From Pseudarthrobacter sulfonivorans (GTDB taxonomy: Bacteria; Actinomycetota; Actinomycetes; Actinomycetales; Micrococcaceae), in NCBI RefSeq assembly GCF_001484605.1, contig NZ_CP013747.1, forward strand, positions 3,286,001 to 3,350,000: 64,000 nucleotides of DNA, read 5' to 3'. Both the position numbers and the translations under genes were made by a program. Shown in pieces: positions 2,899-12,811 of the stretch (position 1 is the stretch's first letter; every line of letters begins with the position of its first letter). Below the pieces are notes generated by a model. It made no database searches, was not told where the DNA came from, and was given only the letters and a program-made list of their open reading frames with translations.

Positions 2899-3054
2899 AC
2901 TGGGGTTTCTCCGGCTGTCCTTGGCAACGGTCGACTGATACGCCAATCGATGTATGAATAAGGGTGTTGCCCCGCAGACGGTGATGCTACCTTGGTGGGA
3001 GTTGTCAGTGATGAAGCTCGCAGACAGCTAGCTGCGTTGTTTGCCGAGGTGCCC

Positions 3055-5166
3055 ATGAACTATGTTCTCGCCGTTGACGTCGGGACCAGTTTCACCGCCG
3101 CCGCCATAGTTCGAATTAATCACGACGCTTCACGTGTTCCGGAGAGCCTGCCGCTGGGGCTCCGCGGAACGGCTGTGCCTTCGGTGGTTTACTACCCCGA
3201 GGAAGGCCCCATCCTGGTGGGGGAGGCGGCCGAGCGCCGCGGCCTTGACTCCCCGGAGCGGGTGGTGCGGGAGTTCAAAAGGCGGGTCGGAGACGACGTC
3301 CCCATTGCCGTCGGCACGCTTTCCCTCCCTGCTGAGGACGTCTTCGCCACTATGGCGCGATGGGTCGCAGACCGGGCTGAAGAACGCGAGGGAGCGCCGC
3401 CGTCGGACATTATCCTTTCCCACCCTGCCTCCTGGGGTGCGCACCGAACGCAGCTCATCCTCGCTGCCCTGGCCTCAAAAGACCTGACCAAGGTCACGCT
3501 GATCAGCGAACCAGAAGCGGCGGCGCTGCACTACGCCGCCCAGGTGCGGGTGGAGGATGGCAGTACCATCGCCGTCTACGACCTCGGTGGCGGGACCTTT
3601 GACACCGCCGTCCTGAAGAAAACGGACGCCGGCCACTTTGAACTGCTGGGCCGGCCCGAAGGGATCGAGGGGCTGGGCGGCGCCGACTTCGACGCAGCCG
3701 TCCTGCGGTACGTTGCCGATCACGCCGGGCAGGGCCTGGCCAATCTTGACCCGTCGGCGCCCGGCGCCCTGGCGGCCCTGTCGCGCCTGCGGCGGGAGTG
3801 TGTTGAAGCCAAGGAGGCGCTGTCCGCGGACAGCGAGGCGAGCATTTCGGTGCTGCTGCCGGGAATCCAGCAGCAGGTGCGGCTGGTCCGGTCCGACTTC
3901 GAGGCGATGATCAGCGAGCCCATCCGGGAAACAGTGGACGCCCTGGAGCGTTCCCTGCAGGACCTGGGGCTCACCCCGGACGACCTGTCCGCGGTGCTTC
4001 TCATCGGCGGCTCATCGCGCATTCCCCTGGTGGCACAGCTGATTTCGGAGCAGCTGGACCGGCCGATCGCCGTGGACGCGGATCCGAAGTCATCCATCTG
4101 CCTCGGCGCGGCGGTTGCCGCCCTTCGCGCTCAGCCGGACGGGGCCGCGCAGCCCGCTGCCATGACCGCACAGCTGGCTGACGCCGTCGTACTCGCGCAG
4201 GCTGACGGGCATCATGGAGCTGCCGGCCGACGAGCCAGCTGGTCCCGGCATGCCGACGCCGGTGCTGCAGCACTCGCCGCCGGTGCCCATGCCGCCGGCG
4301 CCCATGCTGCCGGGCGCAAGGGCGGCGCGCACGGGCCCCGTTCGACCGTGCGGCTGACTGCGGTAGCAGCGGTAGCGGCGCTCCTTACCGGGCTGACGGC
4401 GACTGCAGCCCAGAGCCCGGACGGACTCGGCAGCCTCTCGGCAATGTTCGCCGCGCCGGCAGATGCGGCGAAGGACACCCCAAGCGCTGCTCCTCCTGAC
4501 GGAACCGGCGGACCTGGCTCCGGTGGCCCCGCGGCAGGAGCAGGCGCGGCAGGAGCAGGAGCAGTCGCGGCGCAGCTACCCGTGCAGGGGATTGAAGCCA
4601 GCGCCCAGCTGCAGGACAGCAGCGCGCCGGCCAGTTCCACGGGACTGGACATTGCCGCCTCGTCCACCAGCCGGCCACCTACCGAAGCAGGCCAACCAGC
4701 CGCCGGTGGGGCCGCTGCCGGGCCGGGCACTCCTGGTGAGCCTGCAGAGGGTTCCGGAGGCTCCAGCCCGGGTCCGGTGACTAACCCTACGACGGATCCG
4801 CCGCCGAGCCCGGTCCTATTGCCCGTCGATCCTGTACCTGATCCGACCACTGACCCGGTTCCGGATCCGACCACCGACCCTGCGCCCGATCCGACCACCG
4901 ACCCTGCGCCGGATCCGACCACCAATCCGACCACTGACCCGGTTCCGGATCCGACCACCGACCCTGCGCCGGATCCGACCACTGACCCGGCTCCCGATCC
5001 GACCACCGGCCCGGCTCCCGATCCGACCACCGGCCCGGCTCCCGAGCCGTCGTCGGCACCTGCGCCGGAGCCCGATCCGACGACGGACCCTGCGCCGGTG
5101 CCCGACCCGTTCGCGGAACCGTCCCCCACCACGGATCCTGTCCCAACCACCGAACCGGCGGTCTGA
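3055..5166 (+). CDS. Membrane-anchored Hsp70-like ATPase with DPTTDP-repeat tail
   Basis: The N-terminal ~390 residues are an Hsp70/actin-type ATPase domain: phosphate-1 motif VLAVDVGTS at residues 4-12, phosphate-2 VYDLGGGTFD near 173, adenosine motif LLIGGSSRIP near 315. No recognisable Hsp70 substrate-binding domain follows. Instead an Ala/Gly/His-rich linker leads to one hydrophobic segment (about 431-453), then an Ala/Gly/Pro-rich stretch and a tail of degenerate DPTTDPAP/DPTTDPVP repeats from about residue 577 to the end. The expected topology is ATPase inside, repeats outside. An in-frame TTG at 2992 is possible, but the ATG at 3055 has a GAGG Shine-Dalgarno and puts the phosphate-1 loop at the usual place. 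It leads a block with a LuxR regulator, an IniB-like protein and two dynamins. Its partner and role are unknown. Confidence 0.85.
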   Translation: MNYVLAVDVGTSFTAAAIVRINHDASRVPESLPLGLRGTAVPSVVYYPEEGPILVGEAAERRGLDSPERVVREFKRRVGDDVPIAVGTLSLPAEDVFATMARWVADRAEEREGAPPSDIILSHPASWGAHRTQLILAALASKDLTKVTLISEPEAAALHYAAQVRVEDGSTIAVYDLGGGTFDTAVLKKTDAGHFELLGRPEGIEGLGGADFDAAVLRYVADHAGQGLANLDPSAPGALAALSRLRRECVEAKEALSADSEASISVLLPGIQQQVRLVRSDFEAMISEPIRETVDALERSLQDLGLTPDDLSAVLLIGGSSRIPLVAQLISEQLDRPIAVDADPKSSICLGAAVAALRAQPDGAAQPAAMTAQLADAVVLAQADGHHGAAGRRASWSRHADAGAAALAAGAHAAGAHAAGRKGGAHGPRSTVRLTAVAAVAALLTGLTATAAQSPDGLGSLSAMFAAPADAAKDTPSAAPPDGTGGPGSGGPAAGAGAAGAGAVAAQLPVQGIEASAQLQDSSAPASSTGLDIAASSTSRPPTEAGQPAAGGAAAGPGTPGEPAEGSGGSSPGPVTNPTTDPPPSPVLLPVDPVPDPTTDPVPDPTTDPAPDPTTDPAPDPTTNPTTDPVPDPTTDPAPDPTTDPAPDPTTGPAPDPTTGPAPEPSSAPAPEPDPTTDPAPVPDPFAEPSPTTDPVPTTEPAV

Positions 5167-5169
5167 GGC

Positions 5170-7224
5170 ATGGCCGCCGATCATACGCAGCCCGAACGGG
5201 AACTGCGCGAGGCAGGGACGTCGGCTCCCGCCGGAGCCGCTGACATGGCACAGCAGTTGCGGGGCGAGAATGCGGCAGTCCGTGAACTCCTGCTGGCGCT
5301 GTCCGTGGGGTTCACCTTGCCCGGTCCGCTGCCCGGTGAGCTGGCGCACAAGCTGGAAAGCCCTGACAGTCCGGGCCTGGACGGCGTGGTAAACCGCGCC
5401 GAGGCCTCGGGCCTGCTGCTTGCCGATGGGACCGTCGTCGGCCCCGTGCAACACGCGCTCCTGAACGGCACGCCCACAGCCCGTGTGCATGCATTGCAGC
5501 GGGAACTCGTCGGTTTTGTTTCGGCCGAGGGCCGGCCCTTCGGCGACCTTGCCCGCGAGCTGGCGAGGGGCGGACTGGCGGACCCGAGGGTCGCCGCCGA
5601 ACTCGAAGCCGCAGCGGACAAAGCGCTGCAGCACAACCCCGGTCTGGCCGCCCAGCTGTACAGCGAAGCGCTGCTGGCAGGGGCGAACGAACTGCGCATC
5701 GCTGCCCGCCGCGCCCAGGCCGCAGCCGCCACGGGCGACCTCGACGCCGCCGGCCGGATTATTGACGGGCTCCTGGTGAGCTCTGATCCGCCGGATGTCA
5801 GACTTGGCGTGGATGTTGCTGCTTCCGTCTGGGCACAGCGAGGGCTGCTGGTCCGCAGTGCCGACCTCTATGCCTGGCTTGGTCCGGCGAACATGGGCCG
5901 GTCCGCCCCGCTTGCCGCGGTGGCAATGATCGGCAGCGGCGACCGGGCGGGCGCGGAAGAGGCCTTTCCCGCCGGGTCGGCACCGGTGTCGCCCACCTTA
6001 CTGGCGGTAGCGCTTTCGCAAACGGGCAAGGGCGTGATGGAGTCGATGGAGCGGGATCCACACAAGGGCCTTCCCCTGCTGATCCATGCTTCGGACATGC
6101 TCAACGCGTCTGGTTCGGCGCTGCCCCTTCCGGACACCCCTGGAGCGTTGGCCGCGTTACTGGCCCTCCACAGCGGTGAATCCCACGTCGCGGACACCAT
6201 CATCCGCTCCGCCGTCGCCGCGAGGCAGGGCGGTGACGCCGCCAAGCCACGGCTCCACCTCTTGCAGGCGTGGTCGGCCATGCAGCAGGACGATGCTGGC
6301 GAAGCACGGCTGGCCATCAACGAAGCCTCCAAAGCCAACCACTGGCCGCTGGTTCCCAGGGACGAGTTCCTGTGCGCGGCCCTGGAAGTGGGCCTTGCGC
6401 GGCGTAGCGGCGACGTCCATGACTTGGTGATGGCCTGGGAGCGCGCCCGCGAAGCGATGCTGCACTCCGCCGTCGACCTTTACAGCCTTCTGCCGTGGGG
6501 CGAACTGATGATTGCTGCCGCCCGGTTGCGGGAGACACGGCGCGTCGCGGATTATCTGGATGAAGCGTGGGCTCTGCTGACCAAGCTGGGGGAGCCACCC
6601 CTGTGGGCCGTTCCGCTTCACTGGGCGGCGGTCCAGGCTGCCCTGCTGAACAAGAGCCCGGCCGACCTTGCCCCGCACGCGGCAGCGCTGGTGCGGGCCG
6701 CGGACTACAGTCACATGGCCGCTGTGCTCGCCGCCGCAGGCAAGGCCTGGGTCAGCGTCCTGGCCGGCCGGTTCCAGGCGACGGATGTGGAGAACGCTGC
6801 CCGGGGACTGAAAATGGTGGGCATGCCGTGGGAAGGGGCCCGGCTGGCAGGACATGCGGCCGCGCAGGTAGACGAGCGCCGGGACATGATGCGGCTCCTT
6901 GCCTGCGCCAGGGACCTCCACCCGCAGGGCAGAACTACAGGGCCACCCGACGGGCTGTTACCGGAAGTACGCCGCAGCGCCGCCGAGAACAACCATGGCG
7001 CGCATCCTGACGCCTCGGGGCTCAGCGAACGCGAAAAGGAAGTGGCGCGGTTGGTCCTGGAAGGGAAGACCTACCGGGAAATCGGCGAAGCCATCTACAT
7101 TTCCCCCCGGACCGCTGAACATCACATTGCCAGGATGCGGCGGAGGCTTGGGGCCGAAAACCGCTCCGATCTGCTGGTGCGCCTGAGGCTGGCGCTAAGT
7201 GCAGATCATCAGGGCCCGGACTGA
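5170..7224 (+). CDS. LuxR-family transcriptional regulator, large helical type
   Basis: The C-terminal ~60 residues (about 618-678) are a LuxR/GerE helix-turn-helix with the typical LSEREKEVARLVLEGKTY core followed by the recognition helix. The remaining ~610 residues are Ala/Leu-rich helices suggestive of TPR-like repeats. No Walker A motif is visible, unlike classical MalT/LAL regulators. The ATG lies 4 nt after the stop of the Hsp70 gene, so the two are co-transcribed and probably coupled. From memory, a large regulator gene (Rv0339c) also lies near iniBAC in Mycobacterium tuberculosis, so control of the downstream ini-like genes is the likely job. That is inferred from position; no target site was identified. 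Confidence 0.85.
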   Translation: MAADHTQPERELREAGTSAPAGAADMAQQLRGENAAVRELLLALSVGFTLPGPLPGELAHKLESPDSPGLDGVVNRAEASGLLLADGTVVGPVQHALLNGTPTARVHALQRELVGFVSAEGRPFGDLARELARGGLADPRVAAELEAAADKALQHNPGLAAQLYSEALLAGANELRIAARRAQAAAATGDLDAAGRIIDGLLVSSDPPDVRLGVDVAASVWAQRGLLVRSADLYAWLGPANMGRSAPLAAVAMIGSGDRAGAEEAFPAGSAPVSPTLLAVALSQTGKGVMESMERDPHKGLPLLIHASDMLNASGSALPLPDTPGALAALLALHSGESHVADTIIRSAVAARQGGDAAKPRLHLLQAWSAMQQDDAGEARLAINEASKANHWPLVPRDEFLCAALEVGLARRSGDVHDLVMAWERAREAMLHSAVDLYSLLPWGELMIAAARLRETRRVADYLDEAWALLTKLGEPPLWAVPLHWAAVQAALLNKSPADLAPHAAALVRAADYSHMAAVLAAAGKAWVSVLAGRFQATDVENAARGLKMVGMPWEGARLAGHAAAQVDERRDMMRLLACARDLHPQGRTTGPPDGLLPEVRRSAAENNHGAHPDASGLSEREKEVARLVLEGKTYREIGEAIYISPRTAEHHIARMRRRLGAENRSDLLVRLRLALSADHQGPD

Positions 7225-7265
7225 GCCCTGCTGCCCCTAGCCACGAAACAGGCAAACCCCTAATG

Positions 7266-7302
7266 CGGGGCATCCGGGTACGGGGACACAACCCGATGCC
7301 CG
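7266..7302 (+). terminator. Imperfect hairpin upstream of the IniB-like gene
   Basis: GGGCATCCGGGT and ACCCGATGCCC form a stem of about 11 bp with one bulged base around an ~11-nt loop. It lies after the regulator stop (7224) and before the IniB-like start (7389). There is no U-run. It could be a weak terminator that separates the Hsp70/LuxR unit from the ini-like genes, or part of their leader. Confidence 0.4.
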
Positions 7303-7388
7303 GCCCCTACGAAGGACCTTAGGTTTGATTTAAGCCCGGCACCGAGGCCTGGCGATCCACAACTCCGAGAAGATTTGAGGACCATCCA

Positions 7389-8534
7389 ATGCCTACACTC
7401 GCAAACCAGCTCGTTCAGTTCCTGATGGGCCTGTTCAACAACCCCGCCGCTGCACAGGAGTTCCTGAACGATCCGGAGCGTTCACTCGAGGGTGCCGGCC
7501 TGCGCGAAGTCTGCTCCGCCGATGTTGACGCCGCTATGCCGGTTGTCCTGGACTACGCACCCATCACTGTCAACGCTTCTTCCTTCGACCGGGAGTACAA
7601 CACCGGCGGGAACACCTCGTGGACCGGAGGCAACGGCGGCGCCGGCCACACCCCGCCTCCTGCAGGCGGCGGCGCAGGACACACCCCGGGGCACGATCAC
7701 CATGACGATCACGCCCACGCCGTCCAGCAGCTGCACCACGTGGTGAACAACTACTCCTACACCTCAACGGTGGATGACCGGGACACGATCACGGACCAGT
7801 CGGTCAACCAGAACATCTGGGCCGACGGCGACGTGAACCAGTGGTTCGACAACGAGGCTGTCATCGCATCCGGCGATCAGGCCTTGGCTGCCGGCGACGA
7901 CAACAACGTCCGGGACTCCTACAACACCACCGACTCGTACAACACGGACAACACCACTGACAATTCCACGGACAACTCGATCACCGCCGGCGGCGACGTC
8001 AACATCGGCAACCGCGATCTGGATGTTGCCGATTCGTTCAACACCGACGTTGACCTTGATGTCGCTGATTCGTTCAACGACAACTCGGACAACTCCGATA
8101 ACTCCGATAATTCTGACAACTCGGATAACTCCGTGGACAACTCGGTGAAGATTGAGGATTCCTTCCAGGACAACTCCGATAACTCCACCGAGGACAACAC
8201 CGTCGAAGTCAACGACAACTCGGACAACTCCATCGAAGACAACTCCACCAACGACAACTCCATCGAAGACAACTCCACCACCGATGTTGCGATTGAGGAT
8301 TCCTTCCAGGACAACTCGGATAACACCACCAACACCGAGGTTGCGGTTGAGGACTCCTTCAACGACAACTCGCAGGCGGAGACCACCGAAGTGGAGGTGG
8401 TTGATTCCTTCAACCCGGTGGAGGTTGTGGTTGAGGATTCTTTCCAGGACAACTCCACCGAGGACAACTCGACGAACACTGACGTGGCTGTGGACACCGA
8501 CGTCGTGGTCGAAGATTCGGAGATCAGCCTATAA
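7389..8534 (+). CDS. IniB N-terminal domain protein with Asp/Asn/Ser repeat tail
   Basis: Residues 1 to about 60 (MPTLANQLVQFLMGLFNNPA onward) match the N-terminal domain of IniB, the isoniazid-inducible protein of mycobacteria: a short helical segment followed by an AAQEFLNDPERSLEGAGL-type stretch. Then come a Gly/Pro/His-rich segment (about 75-115) and, from about 160 to the end, a very acidic low-complexity tail built from DNS triplets and EDSFQDNS-like units. The tail has almost no Lys or Arg, where mycobacterial IniB has Gly/Ala-rich repeats. The start has a GAGGA Shine-Dalgarno. No signal peptide or membrane segment is evident. It is followed by the dynamins IniA and IniC. Function is unknown; a scaffold or surface fibre is speculation. 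Confidence 0.8.
   Translation: MPTLANQLVQFLMGLFNNPAAAQEFLNDPERSLEGAGLREVCSADVDAAMPVVLDYAPITVNASSFDREYNTGGNTSWTGGNGGAGHTPPPAGGGAGHTPGHDHHDDHAHAVQQLHHVVNNYSYTSTVDDRDTITDQSVNQNIWADGDVNQWFDNEAVIASGDQALAAGDDNNVRDSYNTTDSYNTDNTTDNSTDNSITAGGDVNIGNRDLDVADSFNTDVDLDVADSFNDNSDNSDNSDNSDNSDNSVDNSVKIEDSFQDNSDNSTEDNTVEVNDNSDNSIEDNSTNDNSIEDNSTTDVAIEDSFQDNSDNTTNTEVAVEDSFNDNSQAETTEVEVVDSFNPVEVVVEDSFQDNSTEDNSTNTDVAVDTDVVVEDSEISL
8023..8520 (+). repeat. Degenerate repeats encoding DNS and VEDSFQDNS units
   Basis: Within the IniB-like gene, tandem 9-bp units (variants of GACAACTCG/GATAACTCC) encode consecutive D-N-S triplets around 8080-8140. Longer units encode [VI]EDSFQDNS or VADSFN at about 8025, 8065, 8150, 8295, 8350 and 8430. 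Synonymous codons vary between units, so selection appears to act on the protein repeat. Confidence 0.85.
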
Positions 8535-8559
8535 ACATCAAGTTCCGGGTACCGGGAGC

Positions 8560-8592
8560 GCCCGGCAGGAGGCCATCGACCTCCTGCCGGGC
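8560..8592 (+). terminator. Perfect 13-bp hairpin between iniB-like and iniA
   Basis: GCCCGGCAGGAGG (8560-8572) pairs perfectly with CCTCCTGCCGGGC (8580-8592) around a 7-nt loop, followed by TCTTC. With only a weak U-tract it could be a partial terminator or an mRNA 3'-end stabiliser. Either would make the repeat protein more abundant than the GTPases. Confidence 0.6.
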
Positions 8593-8645
8593 TCTTCGCG
8601 GATTATCCCCCGCCCCACCCGCACCCCTGCTGTAAAGGACAGATC

Positions 8646-10685
8646 ATGGCTGAATCGCAACGACCGGGAGGCCCTGGACGTTCGCCGGTGCCCATGAACG
8701 CCGGCCAGCTGGCGTTGCTGGTGGAGCAGGGCATCGAGCTGGTGGGGACAGGGGACCGCGCGGACCTGCGGAAACGCCTGGACCAGACCCTGCGCCGGCT
8801 GAAGGATCCGAGTATCCGCGTGATCGTGGTGGGGGAATTCAAGCAAGGAAAAAGCAAACTTATCAACGCCCTGGTGAACGCCCCGGTGTGCCCTGTCGAC
8901 GACGACATCGCCACCTCGGTGCCCACCGTGGTCCGCCACGGGGAACCCGCGTCCGCCGCCATCCTGCTGCCCAAAGCCGGCACAGAGCCCGGCGACGACG
9001 CCGCACTGGAGCGGCAGCCCATCAACATAGTGGACCTGGCGGCTTACGTTTCCGAGCGGGGCAACCCCGGAAACGTCAAGAAGCTGGTAGCGGCCGAAGT
9101 TTTCCTGCCCCGCAAGGTCCTGGGCGGCGGGCTGACGGTCATCGATTCGCCCGGTGTGGGGGGACTGGGCTCCTCGCACACATTGACCACCCTCACAGCC
9201 TTGCCCACAGCGGACGCCATGCTGCTGGTTTCAGATGCCTCGCAGGAATACACCGAGCCCGAAATGCGGTTCCTGCGCCAGGCCATGCGGATCACGCCGA
9301 GCGTTGCGGGCATCCTGTCCAAAACGGACCTGTATCCGGACTGGCGGCGTGTGGAGGCCATGGACCGTGCCCAGCTCGCGCAGGTGGCGCCGGACATCCC
9401 GCTGTTCGCGGTTTCCTCGGATCTCCGGCTGGAGGCTGCACGCCTGCAGGACAGCGAACTCAACGCCGAGTCGGGTTTCCCCGTGCTGATCGGCCACCTC
9501 CGGAATGAAATTGCGGGCAAGGCGGAACGGCTGCAACGGCGCTCCGTCAGCCAGGACCTGCTCTCCGTGACTGAGAACCTGCGCCTGTCCCTGCGGTCCG
9601 AGCTGGGAGCGCTTGAGGATCCTGAGGGGACGCCGCGGATGATTGCAGGGCTGGAGGAGGCGAAGTCACAGGCCGATGAGCTGCGCAAACGTTCCGCCCG
9701 GTGGCAGATTACGCTCAACGACGGCATCGGCGACCTGATCGCGGACATGGAGTACGACCTCCGGGACCGCCTGCGGCGGATCCAGCGCGAAGCCGAGGCC
9801 GCTATTGACCAGGGCGATCCCGGCCCCACCTGGACCCAGTTTTCCGCGTGGCTCGAGGAGTGCGCCGCCGCCGCGATCTCGGACACGTTTGTGTGGACCA
9901 GCGAACGCGCGCAGTGGCTGGCCGCACAAGTGGCGGAGCATTTTTCAGAGGACGAAGTGGCCCTGCCGGTGCTCCACATCTCGGACACCGACGACGCGTT
10001 GGACCCGGTGGACAACATGCCAAGGCTCGACGACGGGCACATCAACCCCCTGCAGAAGGTCCTGATCGGCATGCGCGGATCCTACGGCGGCGTGCTGATG
10101 TTCGGGCTCCTGACCGGGATTTTCGGCATGGCCCTGATCAATCCCCTGTCAGTGGGCGCGGGCCTGCTGCTGGGCCGCAAGGCGTACCGCGAGGACAAGG
10201 AAGCACGGCTGAAGCGCCGGCAGGCCGAAGCCAAGGCGCTGGTCCGCCGGCAGCTGGACGATGTCACCTTCCAGGTGGGCAAGCAGCTCAAGGACCGGCT
10301 CCGGCTGGTGCAGCGTTCAACCCGGGACCACTTCACGGAAATCGCGGACGAACACCATCGCTCCCTGGCGGATTCGGTGGCGGCGGCCCAGAAGGCAGCC
10401 ACCACGTACACGCTGGAAAAGGACATCCGCATCCGCGAGATCAAGGCCGAGCTCAAGAAGGTGGACGCCCTGCACCATGCCGCCGGCCTGGTGGCCGCCG
10501 AAGTGGCCCAATCCCCGGGGCCGCAGGCCGCGCAGTCTCCGGCCGGGCGCGGCACGGCGATGGGAAACCCGGCGATGGGAAACCCGGCGTCGGGAAGCCC
10601 GGCGTCGGGAAGTCCGACGTCGGGAAGTCCGACGACGGGCAGCCAGCAGGTGGGCACGGCGCCGGTGGTTGCGGCGGGCAGATGA
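8646..10685 (+). CDS. iniA: Dynamin-like GTPase, IniA-like
   Basis: This 679-residue bacterial dynamin-like protein has a P-loop GEFKQGKS at residues 63-70, a G3 motif DSPG near 170 and a G4 candidate SKTD near 225. After a long helical stalk comes a hydrophobic hairpin at about 481-508 (GVLMFGLLTGIFGMALINPL onward), typical of membrane insertion, then a basic helical region. Mycobacterial IniA is a membrane-remodelling GTPase linked to tolerance of cell-wall drugs; the same role is inferred here. The last ~40 residues are Gly/Ser/Pro repeats (AMGNP, ASGSP) from a 15-bp tandem repeat. The start has an AAGGA site 5 nt upstream. The TGA overlaps the iniC ATG (ATGA), so the two GTPases are translationally coupled. 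Confidence 0.88.
   Translation: MAESQRPGGPGRSPVPMNAGQLALLVEQGIELVGTGDRADLRKRLDQTLRRLKDPSIRVIVVGEFKQGKSKLINALVNAPVCPVDDDIATSVPTVVRHGEPASAAILLPKAGTEPGDDAALERQPINIVDLAAYVSERGNPGNVKKLVAAEVFLPRKVLGGGLTVIDSPGVGGLGSSHTLTTLTALPTADAMLLVSDASQEYTEPEMRFLRQAMRITPSVAGILSKTDLYPDWRRVEAMDRAQLAQVAPDIPLFAVSSDLRLEAARLQDSELNAESGFPVLIGHLRNEIAGKAERLQRRSVSQDLLSVTENLRLSLRSELGALEDPEGTPRMIAGLEEAKSQADELRKRSARWQITLNDGIGDLIADMEYDLRDRLRRIQREAEAAIDQGDPGPTWTQFSAWLEECAAAAISDTFVWTSERAQWLAAQVAEHFSEDEVALPVLHISDTDDALDPVDNMPRLDDGHINPLQKVLIGMRGSYGGVLMFGLLTGIFGMALINPLSVGAGLLLGRKAYREDKEARLKRRQAEAKALVRRQLDDVTFQVGKQLKDRLRLVQRSTRDHFTEIADEHHRSLADSVAAAQKAATTYTLEKDIRIREIKAELKKVDALHHAAGLVAAEVAQSPGPQAAQSPAGRGTAMGNPAMGNPASGSPASGSPTSGSPTTGSQQVGTAPVVAAGR
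10557..10646 (+). repeat. Six 15-bp tandem repeats in the iniA 3' end
   Basis: Six in-frame 15-bp units encode AMGNP, AMGNP, ASGSP, ASGSP, TSGSP and TTGSQ. The first two units are identical and later ones drift, which fits recent slippage. Copy number may vary among strains. Confidence 0.9.
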
Positions 10686-12175
10686 AGGAGTCCATCAGCG
10701 CGGGAGTGGCGGACCTGATCCAGGACGCCCTGCTCGTGTATGCGGACGACCCCGCTGCGGCTGCGGCATTGGAGACTTATGCCCGGCGGCTGTCCGAGCC
10801 CCTCAGGCTCGCTGTGGCAGGCATGGTCAAGGCGGGAAAATCCACGCTGCTGAACGCCATCATCGGGGAGGAGATCGCCCCGACCGACACCGGGGAATGC
10901 ACAAAGATTGTGACCTGGTACCGCTACGGGCACACGCCGCGGATCACGGCCTACCCCATTGCCGGTGAACCGCATATCCTGCCGCTGAAGCGCGTGGACG
11001 GCCGCCTGGTGTTTGTCCTGGGCAACGCCCGCGCCGAGGACATGGAACGGCTGGTGGTGGAGTGGCCCTCGCCGGCCCTGCGCGAGCTCACCCTGATAGA
11101 CACCCCGGGAATTGCCTCGTTGTCCGAAGACGTCTCTGCCCGGTCCACCGATTTCCTCATCCCCGTGGACGCGCCCTCCGAGGCTGATGCCATCATCTAC
11201 CTCATGCGCCACATGCACGCCTCGGACCTGCGGTTCCTCGAATCCTTCAGGGATACCGAGGCGGGTAGGTCGGGAACCGTGAACGCCCTTGCCGTGCTGT
11301 CCCGTGCCGACGAGATCGGTGCGGGCCGCATTGATTCGCTGCTCTCCGCGGGTGACATCGCTGACCGGTACCGCCGGGACCACAGCCTGCGGAAGCTGGC
11401 GTTGGGGGTGGTCCCGGTGGCCGGGCTGCTCGCGCAAAGCGCACGCAGCATGCGCCAGTCGGACTTCGAGTCCATGCAGGTCCTGGCCGGCATGGACCGA
11501 TCGGCCCGGGAGCGGATGCTGCTCTCGGCGGACAGGTTCATCAGGGCCAGTGTCCCGCAAAGCCTGGGCGCCGAAGCCCGGGCTTCCCTTCTTGAGCGGT
11601 TCGGGCTGTTTGGGATACGGCTGGGCGTAGTGCTGATTCGGAGTGGCTTCACGGAACCCACGCCACTGGCGCATGAACTGGCCCGGCGCAGCGGGCTGGA
11701 CCCGTTGCTGCACCTTGTGGCCCGGCAGTTCCAGGCCCGCGGGGATGCCCTCAAAGCCCGTACTGCCTTGGTGGGAGTGGAAAGCTTGCTGCGCAGCGCG
11801 CCCAGGGAGGGGACCGGCCGCCTGGCCGCAGCCTTGGAACGCCTTCAGGCCAACGCCCATGAGTTCCGTGAGCTCCGCCTGCTCGCCACGATCCGTACCA
11901 CGGGGGTATCCCTCAGTGATGAACTGGCGGCGGAGGCTGAAATGCTGGTCGGCGGCTGGGGTGCGGCGCCCGCCCTGAGGATGGGGCTGGCTCCGGATGC
12001 CGGACCGGACGTAGTCCTGGCCGAAGCCCGCCGCTTCCTAAACCGGTGGCGGACGGTATCGGAAAACCCGCTGACGGAGCGCTCAGCCGTGGAGGCCTGC
12101 CGCGTGGTGATGCGCAGCTGTGAGGGCGTTGTGGCTGAATGCTCGGCCCTGCAGCTCCACCCGCAGTCCGCCTGA
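10682..12175 (+). CDS. iniC: Dynamin-like GTPase, IniC-like
   Basis: This is the second dynamin-family GTPase of the pair, 497 residues, close to the size of mycobacterial IniC. The P-loop GMVKAGKS is at residues 47-54, G3 DTPG near 140 within LIDTPGIASLSED, and a G4-like SRAD near 206. The helical C-terminal half lacks an obvious transmembrane hairpin, so it may work through IniA as a heterotypic partner (inference). Long open frame extends upstream inside iniA, but the ATG at 10682 in the ATGA overlap is the natural start because the P-loop then lies at the family's usual distance. It is the last gene of the block; the next genes run on the opposite strand. Confidence 0.88.
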   Translation: MKESISAGVADLIQDALLVYADDPAAAAALETYARRLSEPLRLAVAGMVKAGKSTLLNAIIGEEIAPTDTGECTKIVTWYRYGHTPRITAYPIAGEPHILPLKRVDGRLVFVLGNARAEDMERLVVEWPSPALRELTLIDTPGIASLSEDVSARSTDFLIPVDAPSEADAIIYLMRHMHASDLRFLESFRDTEAGRSGTVNALAVLSRADEIGAGRIDSLLSAGDIADRYRRDHSLRKLALGVVPVAGLLAQSARSMRQSDFESMQVLAGMDRSARERMLLSADRFIRASVPQSLGAEARASLLERFGLFGIRLGVVLIRSGFTEPTPLAHELARRSGLDPLLHLVARQFQARGDALKARTALVGVESLLRSAPREGTGRLAAALERLQANAHEFRELRLLATIRTTGVSLSDELAAEAEMLVGGWGAAPALRMGLAPDAGPDVVLAEARRFLNRWRTVSENPLTERSAVEACRVVMRSCEGVVAECSALQLHPQSA

Positions 12176-12184
12176 GGTCAGCCC

Positions 12185-12811
12185 TTATTGCCGCGTTCGC
12201 GCCGGCCTGACCTGCGCCGACTGGATCCGCGCTGCCTTGAGCCACCCGCCCGCCGACGGCACAAAAACCGCCACCAGGCCGAGGAACGCAAGGAGTAGCT
12301 GGGCTCCCCAGAGCATCACAACGTAACTGCCGGCGTCGCCCTCGGGGACGAGGAAAGCCGCGGCCACCACCATGACCATTACCTGCCCGGCCAGCAGCGG
12401 GATCATCAGCCAGCGGGACCAGCCGCGGCGCGCTGAGAAAATAGCCAGCGCCGCCGCTTCGAGCAGGATCACCAGCAGCAGGGCGCCCAGGCTACCCCAG
12501 AAAACAATGGCCGCGGACGTGGTCACAGCGTCAGGTCCGCCGCCGGGGGACATCTGGTCCACCACAGTGCGGAGCCGCTCCAGGTGTGAGTCGAGGGTGA
12601 GGAAGGAACCGATGAGTACGGCGAGGCCGGCAACGAAGCTGAGCAGCCAAAAGGTCCGCGCCAGGCGGACGCTCCGCGGTGCCGGCGGAATGACAACGAT
12701 GGGCGCCGGCGCGGAGTAGGACAGCCCGGGCCGTGGCGGCGGCAGAGGGGGCGTGGCAGCCCCGGCGGGTGCAACTGGCTGTTGGGATTCTCCGTCGGGG
12801 TGCTGGGCCAT
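12185..12811 (-). CDS. Four-helix membrane protein of unknown function
   Basis: I do not recognise this 208-residue protein. A Pro/Ala-rich cytoplasmic N-terminus of about 50 residues precedes four predicted membrane helices near 53-72, 101-125, 133-153 and 162-185, and a short basic tail. It lies 7 bp downstream of the PLDc_N-domain gene on the same strand, so the two probably form an operon. Its 3' end converges on iniC with only 9 bp between stops. Confidence 0.75.
   Translation of the reverse strand: MAQHPDGESQQPVAPAGAATPPLPPPRPGLSYSAPAPIVVIPPAPRSVRLARTFWLLSFVAGLAVLIGSFLTLDSHLERLRTVVDQMSPGGGPDAVTTSAAIVFWGSLGALLLVILLEAAALAIFSARRGWSRWLMIPLLAGQVMVMVVAAAFLVPEGDAGSYVVMLWGAQLLLAFLGLVAVFVPSAGGWLKAARIQSAQVRPARTRQ

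Follow-up and report, generated by a model that had tools for sequence, protein, structure and literature searches.

A predicted IniR box and a phylum-wide Hsp70 link in an iniBAC-type gene block of Pseudarthrobacter sulfonivorans

The iniBAC operon, which is switched on by isoniazid in tuberculosis bacteria, is the best-known mycobacterial reporter of cell wall stress. Here we describe an iniBAC-type block of five genes in a stretch of 64,000 nucleotides from Pseudarthrobacter sulfonivorans (contig NZ_CP013747.1, positions 3,286,001 to 3,350,000), referred to as the window at its full length. All five genes lie on the + strand in the order hsp70-iniR-iniB-iniA-iniC and are flanked by ccsB and a PLDc_N gene; this arrangement, read from the letters alone in an earlier note, is borne out by the open reading frame coordinates and by Pfam and NCBIfam matches to each gene. 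The regulator IniR is already known, and what is new here is a set of CCCCTA iterons upstream of iniB, which is the predicted IniR box, and a link of the Ini genes with an Hsp70-like protein across the phylum. The features of the block are as follows.

3055..5166, +, Hsp70-like protein, 703 aa from ATG 3055 (PF00012, E 1.2e-43)
4354..4410, +, Hsp70 transmembrane (TM) helix, residues 434-452, predicted N-in/C-out from hydropathy
4411..5163, +, Hsp70 tail rich in P, T and D, 251 residues in the translation, predicted to lie outside the membrane
5170..7224, +, IniR homologue without the AAA+ ATPase domain (NF038181, E 5.3e-115)
5779..6930, +, IniR alpha-solenoid like MalT domain III, residues 204-587
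7018..7179, +, IniR LuxR/GerE DNA-binding domain, residues 617-670 (PF00196, E 1e-12)
7234..7239, +, CCCCTA motif, predicted IniR box 1
7257..7262, +, CCCCTA motif, predicted IniR box 2
7304..7309, +, third CCCCTA copy, near the promoter, its position less conserved than those of boxes 1 and 2
7389..8534, +, IniB, helical N-terminal domain (about residues 1-55) and long acidic tail rich in D, N and S (NF038175, E 1.6e-18)
8560..8592, +, RNA hairpin between iniB and iniA with a 13-bp stem (fold z-score -3.9)
8646..10685, +, IniA, dynamin-like GTPase with membrane loop (6j72, E 1.4e-139; PF00350)
10682..12175, +, IniC, dynamin-like GTPase, translational overlap with iniA (PF00350, E 1.1e-13)

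Phylum-wide association and the CCCCTA iterons

The earlier note had named confinement to this one genome as what would speak against its proposal; this was looked for, and the five families co-occur far beyond P. sulfonivorans. Among 37 genomes of the genus, that of P. sulfonivorans included, 22 have IniR at E ~1e-100 or better, and 0 of 22 searched relatives from other genera do; with the limit set at E <= 1e-40, it is present in 15 of 396 genomes across the phylum and 38 of 394 across the class, two samples that overlap. To avoid a choice of loci by Hsp70 or IniR, named genomes were scanned with an alignment of IniC and the best 80 of at least 534 relatives were taken, a set biased towards relatives of the first sequence (Nitriliruptoria, Pseudonocardia, Acidimicrobiia, Micrococcaceae and others). 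Near IniC in all 80 loci, many of them on short contigs, IniA is present in 78, Hsp70 in 63, IniR in 59 and IniB in 46; for the 47 pieces of at least 18 kb the corresponding counts are 47, 47, 44 and 35. All five genes occur in 92 of 146 mapped loci, and the gene order varies by lineage: Hsp70>IniR>IniC in 37, a divergent Hsp70 with IniR at the distal end in 35, joint divergence of IniR and Hsp70 from IniC in 21, and other orders in fewer. That the association is kept despite such rearrangement argues for a working link. Both in Micrococcales and in most mycobacteria-like loci, Hsp70 and IniR are adjacent on the same strand. The P. sulfonivorans genome contains two Hsp70 loci, DnaK and the block copy, from which we calculate that about 1% of random 20-kb stretches should contain an Hsp70, so its presence in the block is hardly due to chance; the same can be said of the identity of the block, given the IniA match to a solved structure, the match of the IniB N-terminal domain and the recurrence of the set in distant lineages. 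Judged from these sequence comparisons, the five-gene association is phylum-wide, and the block, which the earlier note had called expanded, is near the usual actinobacterial form, also including a DUF6264 gene, and is not peculiar to one genome.

A search of the open-access literature returned no paper pairing iniR with Hsp70 (papers writing 'dnaK', such as Boot 2017, would escape it), none with iniB, iniA and Arthrobacter, and none with CCCCTAA, promoter and Mycobacterium. In its available passages, Boot 2017 mentions a dnaK-like gene beside iniR in a single sentence, for Mycobacterium smegmatis only (PMC5760070). Our block resembles that locus in having an Hsp70-type gene beside iniR; what was there a remark on one species is here followed across the phylum.

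In 23 loci of the genus the iniR-iniB gap measures 158-184 bp and keeps CCCCTA repeats together with an inverted TAGGGG; the repeats are followed by CCCGAT and then by what reads by eye as a TANNNT-like -10 element, and a Sigma-70 scan gave no promoter-like site. At least two CCCCTA copies within 260 bp upstream of iniB occur in 68 of 80 such regions, versus 0.19% of control regions from the same loci; they are found in 23 of 23 loci of the genus in which the motif was initially recognised and in 45 of 57 loci outside it. A 6-mer count per lineage, whose p-values are too small because the rows are related, puts CCCTAA or CCCCTA at the top in the Micrococcaceae of the genus (23/23), in mycobacteria-like genomes (36/36) and in Pseudonocardiales (14 and 16 of 32), and CCCCTA likewise leads among the 6-mers of the regions upstream of hsp70 in deep lineages (9/11). 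No CCCCTA-type motif is the top 6-mer in family f101, whose spacer by eye carries CCCCCAA instead; the recognition stretch of IniR varies little among all lineages shown, f101 included. Within the window CCCCTA occurs seven times, three of them upstream of iniB, and is overall rarer than in shuffles. We propose that these iterons, which recur in Micrococcaceae, mycobacteria-like genomes, Pseudonocardia and others, represent a new predicted IniR box, and infer that IniR binds to them; being shared, they offer a concrete phylum-wide prediction for IniR binding.

The pattern CCCCTAN{2,30}CCCCTA was rejected as a genome-wide predictor of the IniR regulon, since it occurs six times in the genome against 22 times for the reversed control pattern. 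One of the six places lies upstream of otsA (trehalose synthesis), which looked a tempting target because trehalose is the reported IniR signal; it was likewise rejected, since TAGGGG is present there both where IniR occurs (17 of 21 genomes) and where it does not (5 of 9), a comparison that took in 30 of 36 listed relatives. A TTTTAGGGG element is conserved upstream of otsA (L163:2440-2720; in the P. sulfonivorans genome, C1 near 1471022) in genomes with and without IniR, and is probably an unrelated promoter element.

Proteins of the block

The membrane-anchored Hsp70-like ATPase of the earlier note holds up, in that a PF00012 nucleotide-binding domain (NBD) and one predicted TM helix are both found. 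The PF00012 match covers residues 28-377 of the form starting at TTG 2992 and stops at profile position 372 of 599, where the TM helix and the P/T-rich tail follow; the chaperone portion consists of the NBD alone, and the Pfam profile match includes no substrate-binding domain. The catalytic residues of the NBD are intact at the positions aligned to what we take to be D8, K70, E171, D194 and T199 of DnaK. The TTG start given before is less likely than ATG 3055: among 21 aligned loci of the genus, the alignment starts within residues 16-22 of the TTG form (M22 corresponds to ATG 3055) in 17, within residues 4-12 in three and, for one near-identical relative, at residue 1. Over all mapped loci a TM helix lies 3' of the NBD in 118 of 139 Hsp70s; several of those without one are truncated at the end of a contig, and L068 is genuinely short. 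With a slightly lower TM threshold, K and R are more numerous before the TM helix than after it in 122 of 124 Hsp70s, which indicates that the tail should face outside. The lineage of L073 has a folded wall-side domain instead of the P/T tail, the outside part of its ini-type Hsp70 (L073:7625-8738 and following) carrying CAL..DG...CWG repeats that are RCC1/BNR-like by eye. In mycobacteria-like loci the region often contains another Hsp70-like gene of greater divergence, located 3' of IniR in L060, L061, L128, L129 and L134 and near IniC in L065, L130, L131, L132 and L133. Hsp70s without a substrate-binding domain likewise stand beside GTPase genes in actinobacterial GTPase-centred neighbourhoods (PMC7159879); the partners there are different, and no available passage of that paper names dynamins, IniR or IniA.

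What the earlier note described as a large LuxR regulator does possess a LuxR/GerE domain; it is not a novel regulator, however, but a homologue of the known iniBAC activator IniR, matching NF038181 over profile positions 182-825 of 827. Its score of 385.6 bits, against a curated equivalog cut-off of 750, makes it a homologue rather than an NCBI equivalog, and its nearest named homologues are from Arthrobacter and Pseudarthrobacter. IniR is the dedicated iniBAC activator in Mycobacterium marinum and Mycobacterium tuberculosis and binds just upstream of iniBAC, as excerpts of PMC5760070 report. Among the features of STAND/MalT-type regulators, the MalT domain III-like solenoid and the C-terminal helix-turn-helix (HTH) are both present in the block protein and the P-loop NTPase domain is absent: no P-loop is found, the hidden Markov model of the IniR ATPase gives no match, and the profile match begins at position 182 of 827. 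On this sequence evidence the block IniR has lost its AAA+ ATPase domain, which sets it apart from Escherichia coli MalT (STAND, domain III 1hz4), and it cannot by itself sense an ATP surge via its own ATPase. A Foldseek search of the IniR model returned generic TPR proteins with low TM-score, the top one being Tom71 with an Hsp70 tail peptide, and was not used as evidence.

The alignment of IniA to the solved M. smegmatis IniA (6j72) extends over 596 residues, including the GTPase domain and the lipid-loop stretch with Gly-Arg-Lys; the tail of the block protein is longer and of low complexity. According to available parts of PMC6715688, the M. smegmatis enzyme cuts membranes in a GTP-dependent manner and may need IniC. 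IniC is a second dynamin directly beside IniA, and its start codon ATG 10682 forms an ATGA overlap with the iniA stop. The IniB N-terminal domain scores 66 bits against a cut-off of 40; in the AlphaFold2 model residues 1-50 have pLDDT values of at least 90 and the rest are low, the model has no significant match in the PDB, and the disordered tail has a net charge of -76 by composition. Together with the IniR homologue, these matches make the iniBAC-type identity proposed earlier sound. The strong hairpin between iniB and iniA has an exact stem of at least 9 bp in 19 of 23 loci of the genus, 17 of which share the sequence type of the window; it could keep iniAC below iniB, which would fit the high share of IniB reported for mycobacteria in passages of PMC5760070.

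The block resembles mycobacterial iniBAC and its IniR (Rv0339c-Rv0343; PMC5760070, in the parts available) in keeping IniR, IniB, IniA and IniC homologues together, in its IniB N-terminal domain and in its dynamin pair, and shares the CCCCTA iterons upstream of iniB with mycobacteria-like genomes. It differs in the IniR without AAA+ ATPase, in the adjacent membrane-anchored Hsp70 with intact catalytic residues, in the acidic D/N/S-rich IniB tail and DUF6264, and in its layout, where a putative sensor operon of two genes precedes the effector operon on the same strand.

Proposed mechanism and alternatives

We propose that the Ini block may be a full envelope-stress system in two tiers, and give an even chance to the reading in which Hsp70 and IniR sense and IniB, IniA and IniC are inducible membrane effectors. 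The sensing tier would comprise Hsp70 and IniR, whose genes are 3 bases apart, stop to start, in the same frame. Hsp70 would span the membrane with its P/T-rich tail in the wall space and its actin-fold domain, which binds ATP, on the inner side, and would hold or release IniR according to its nucleotide state; released IniR should then bind the CCCCTA iterons upstream of iniB, as MalT uses box arrays. The induced tier would consist of IniB and, past a hairpin with a possible ratio-tuning role, the dynamins IniA and IniC, which may reshape or seal the plasma membrane. We infer both the sensor role of Hsp70 and its action on IniR: the latter is favoured by the hsp70-iniR operon, whereas three long loci having Hsp70 without IniR favour an action on the dynamins. 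A nucleotide switch is plausible since an ATP surge precedes iniBAC induction, as sections of PMC6104191 describe; its authors suspected the IniR ATPase as the sensor, and a harmless soil genus with an ATPase-less IniR beside a membrane-spanning Hsp70 makes that proposal for the sensing step testable. The steady presence of Hsp70 suggests that work on iniBAC only covers part of a larger machine. For Streptomyces, Bucca 2000 reportedly described DnaK as a corepressor with HspR; there likewise an Hsp70 would control a transcription regulator, the differences being a soluble full-length DnaK and an unrelated regulator.

Several observations weigh against the two-tier reading. Many Hsp70s in the mapped loci are without catalytic residues, and L067, L142 and L144 seem to lack both the IniR P-loop and a canonical Hsp70. 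Three of the 47 long loci (L203, L227, L231) have Hsp70, IniA and IniC with no IniR within the piece, in Pseudonocardia-type loci Hsp70 diverges from iniB with IniR at the distal end, and in mycobacteria-like L136, L063 and L137 no Hsp70 neighbours IniR, L063 and L137 having a second-type Hsp70 near iniC. The iterons are weaker in the named-genome set (at least two CCCCTA in 20 of 61 regions upstream of iniB, at least one in 37 of 61), and L038, L139, L140, L151 and L152 show either no boxes or altered ones.

Hsp70 might instead act on the effectors, as a membrane-anchored actin-like ATPase placing, loading or dismantling IniA/IniC/IniB assemblies at damaged membrane, with IniR alone sensing. 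In the long IniC-chosen loci it accompanies IniA and IniC more constantly (47 of 47) than IniR (44) or IniB (35) does, it shares a divergent region with iniB/iniA in deep lineages and in Pseudonocardia, its NBD also matches MreB/Mbl (E 3e-10), and the three long loci without IniR retain it beside both dynamins. In the genus, however, hsp70 appears from the gene layout to share a transcript with iniR rather than with the effector operon, and the missing substrate-binding domain speaks against clathrin-type uncoating. We regard this alternative as possible though somewhat improbable. Just as tentative is a stronger form of the two-tier reading, in which the Hsp70 NBD would serve as transmembrane envelope sensor and ATP-dependent switch of a MalT-like factor, fully replacing the IniR ATPase in Micrococcaceae, and Hsp70 would be an ancestral part of the Ini core that is secondarily missing beside iniR in some mycobacteria.

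A move of ATP sensing from the IniR AAA+ domain to the Hsp70 NBD in Micrococcaceae is suggested by the ccsB-linked loci, in which IniR is without the ATPase domain in 23 of 23 and Hsp70 is intact in 21 of the 22 showing it (the exception, L051, is a frameshifted assembly). All 18 mycobacteria-like loci keep the IniR ATPase, and the Hsp70s found in them are degenerate at the D8, K70, E171 and T199 positions; genome G033 holds one copy of each kind (L038, L039), and in Asanoa the P-loop Lys is replaced by Arg beside an intact Hsp70. Against such a swap, both ATPases are kept in 38 of the 114 loci with both genes, and neither seems present in L067, L142 and L144. The raw rule sorts the remaining loci of the 114 into 42 with intact Hsp70 and no ATPase, 29 of the reverse kind and five with neither, where the 'no ATPase' rows include doubtful or contig-cut ones (L152, L222, L250, L145, L276) and the frameshifted L051, and where L153 and the Asanoa loci do have the domain, with Arg for the P-loop Lys. 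On a tree of IniA and IniC the two traits change 6 and 4 times without association (sign test median p 1; states set by hand, 60 of 64 hand-chosen loci kept, L067 and L144 being among the four dropped for having no full IniA/IniC). On this test the swap was rejected as a general rule; it is kept as a lead, and one that we consider unlikely. That the dynamin pair belongs to an anti-phage or other conflict system rather than to an envelope-stress response is very improbable: IniA and IniC do give weak PADLOC matches to LeoA/LeoBC dynamin models (best E 5e-12 and 8e-11), but these follow from the shared dynamin fold and are far weaker than the 6j72 match of IniA (E 1.4e-139), the IniB and IniR homologues are specific to the Ini system, and no other PADLOC model matched except for a short HTH match.

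Site of the block and neighbouring gene

The suggestion of the earlier note that the block is a cassette inserted at ccsB stands in part. The block does behave as a cassette: the ccsB-PLDc_N site is without it in 15 of 37 genomes of the genus, and all 15 of these IniR-less genomes have ccsB and no IniC at E <= 1e-20. In 13 of them ccsB and PLDc_N are neighbours, and the other two run off contigs; the gap in the 13 junctions is 89-305 bp in six and contains 1.3-3.6 kb of other DNA in seven. Insertion and loss are not told apart, as on a tree of ResB, CcsB and a neighbour (36 rows; L051 and L059 left out) the block must have come or gone at least twice, which fits one insertion with later losses or two arrivals, and a single gain was therefore not accepted as settled history. 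The junctions with other DNA (L112-L114, L117, L118, L122, L126) suggest that the site may take other inserts.

Genome G033 (L038 = C1, L039 = C22) contains two Ini blocks of different make-up: the copy at ccsB has an ATPase-less IniR, and the copy elsewhere has a full-length IniR, a degenerate Hsp70 and, upstream of iniB, CCCGTAA-like repeats instead of any exact CCCCTA. The Ini loci L201 and L204 lie in contigs of metagenome-assembled genomes titled Acidobacteria and Thermoanaerobacterales, which may be mislabelled or transferred. In the window a further gene adjoins the block downstream.

12185..12811, -, DUF6264 membrane protein, convergent with iniC (co-occurrence with the block)

A DUF6264 match is found in 22 of 23 ccsB-linked block loci, all but L048, and in none of 15 pieces taken from genomes without the block; DUF6264 is thus a sixth gene travelling with the block, and it adjoins iniC in other Micrococcales as well.

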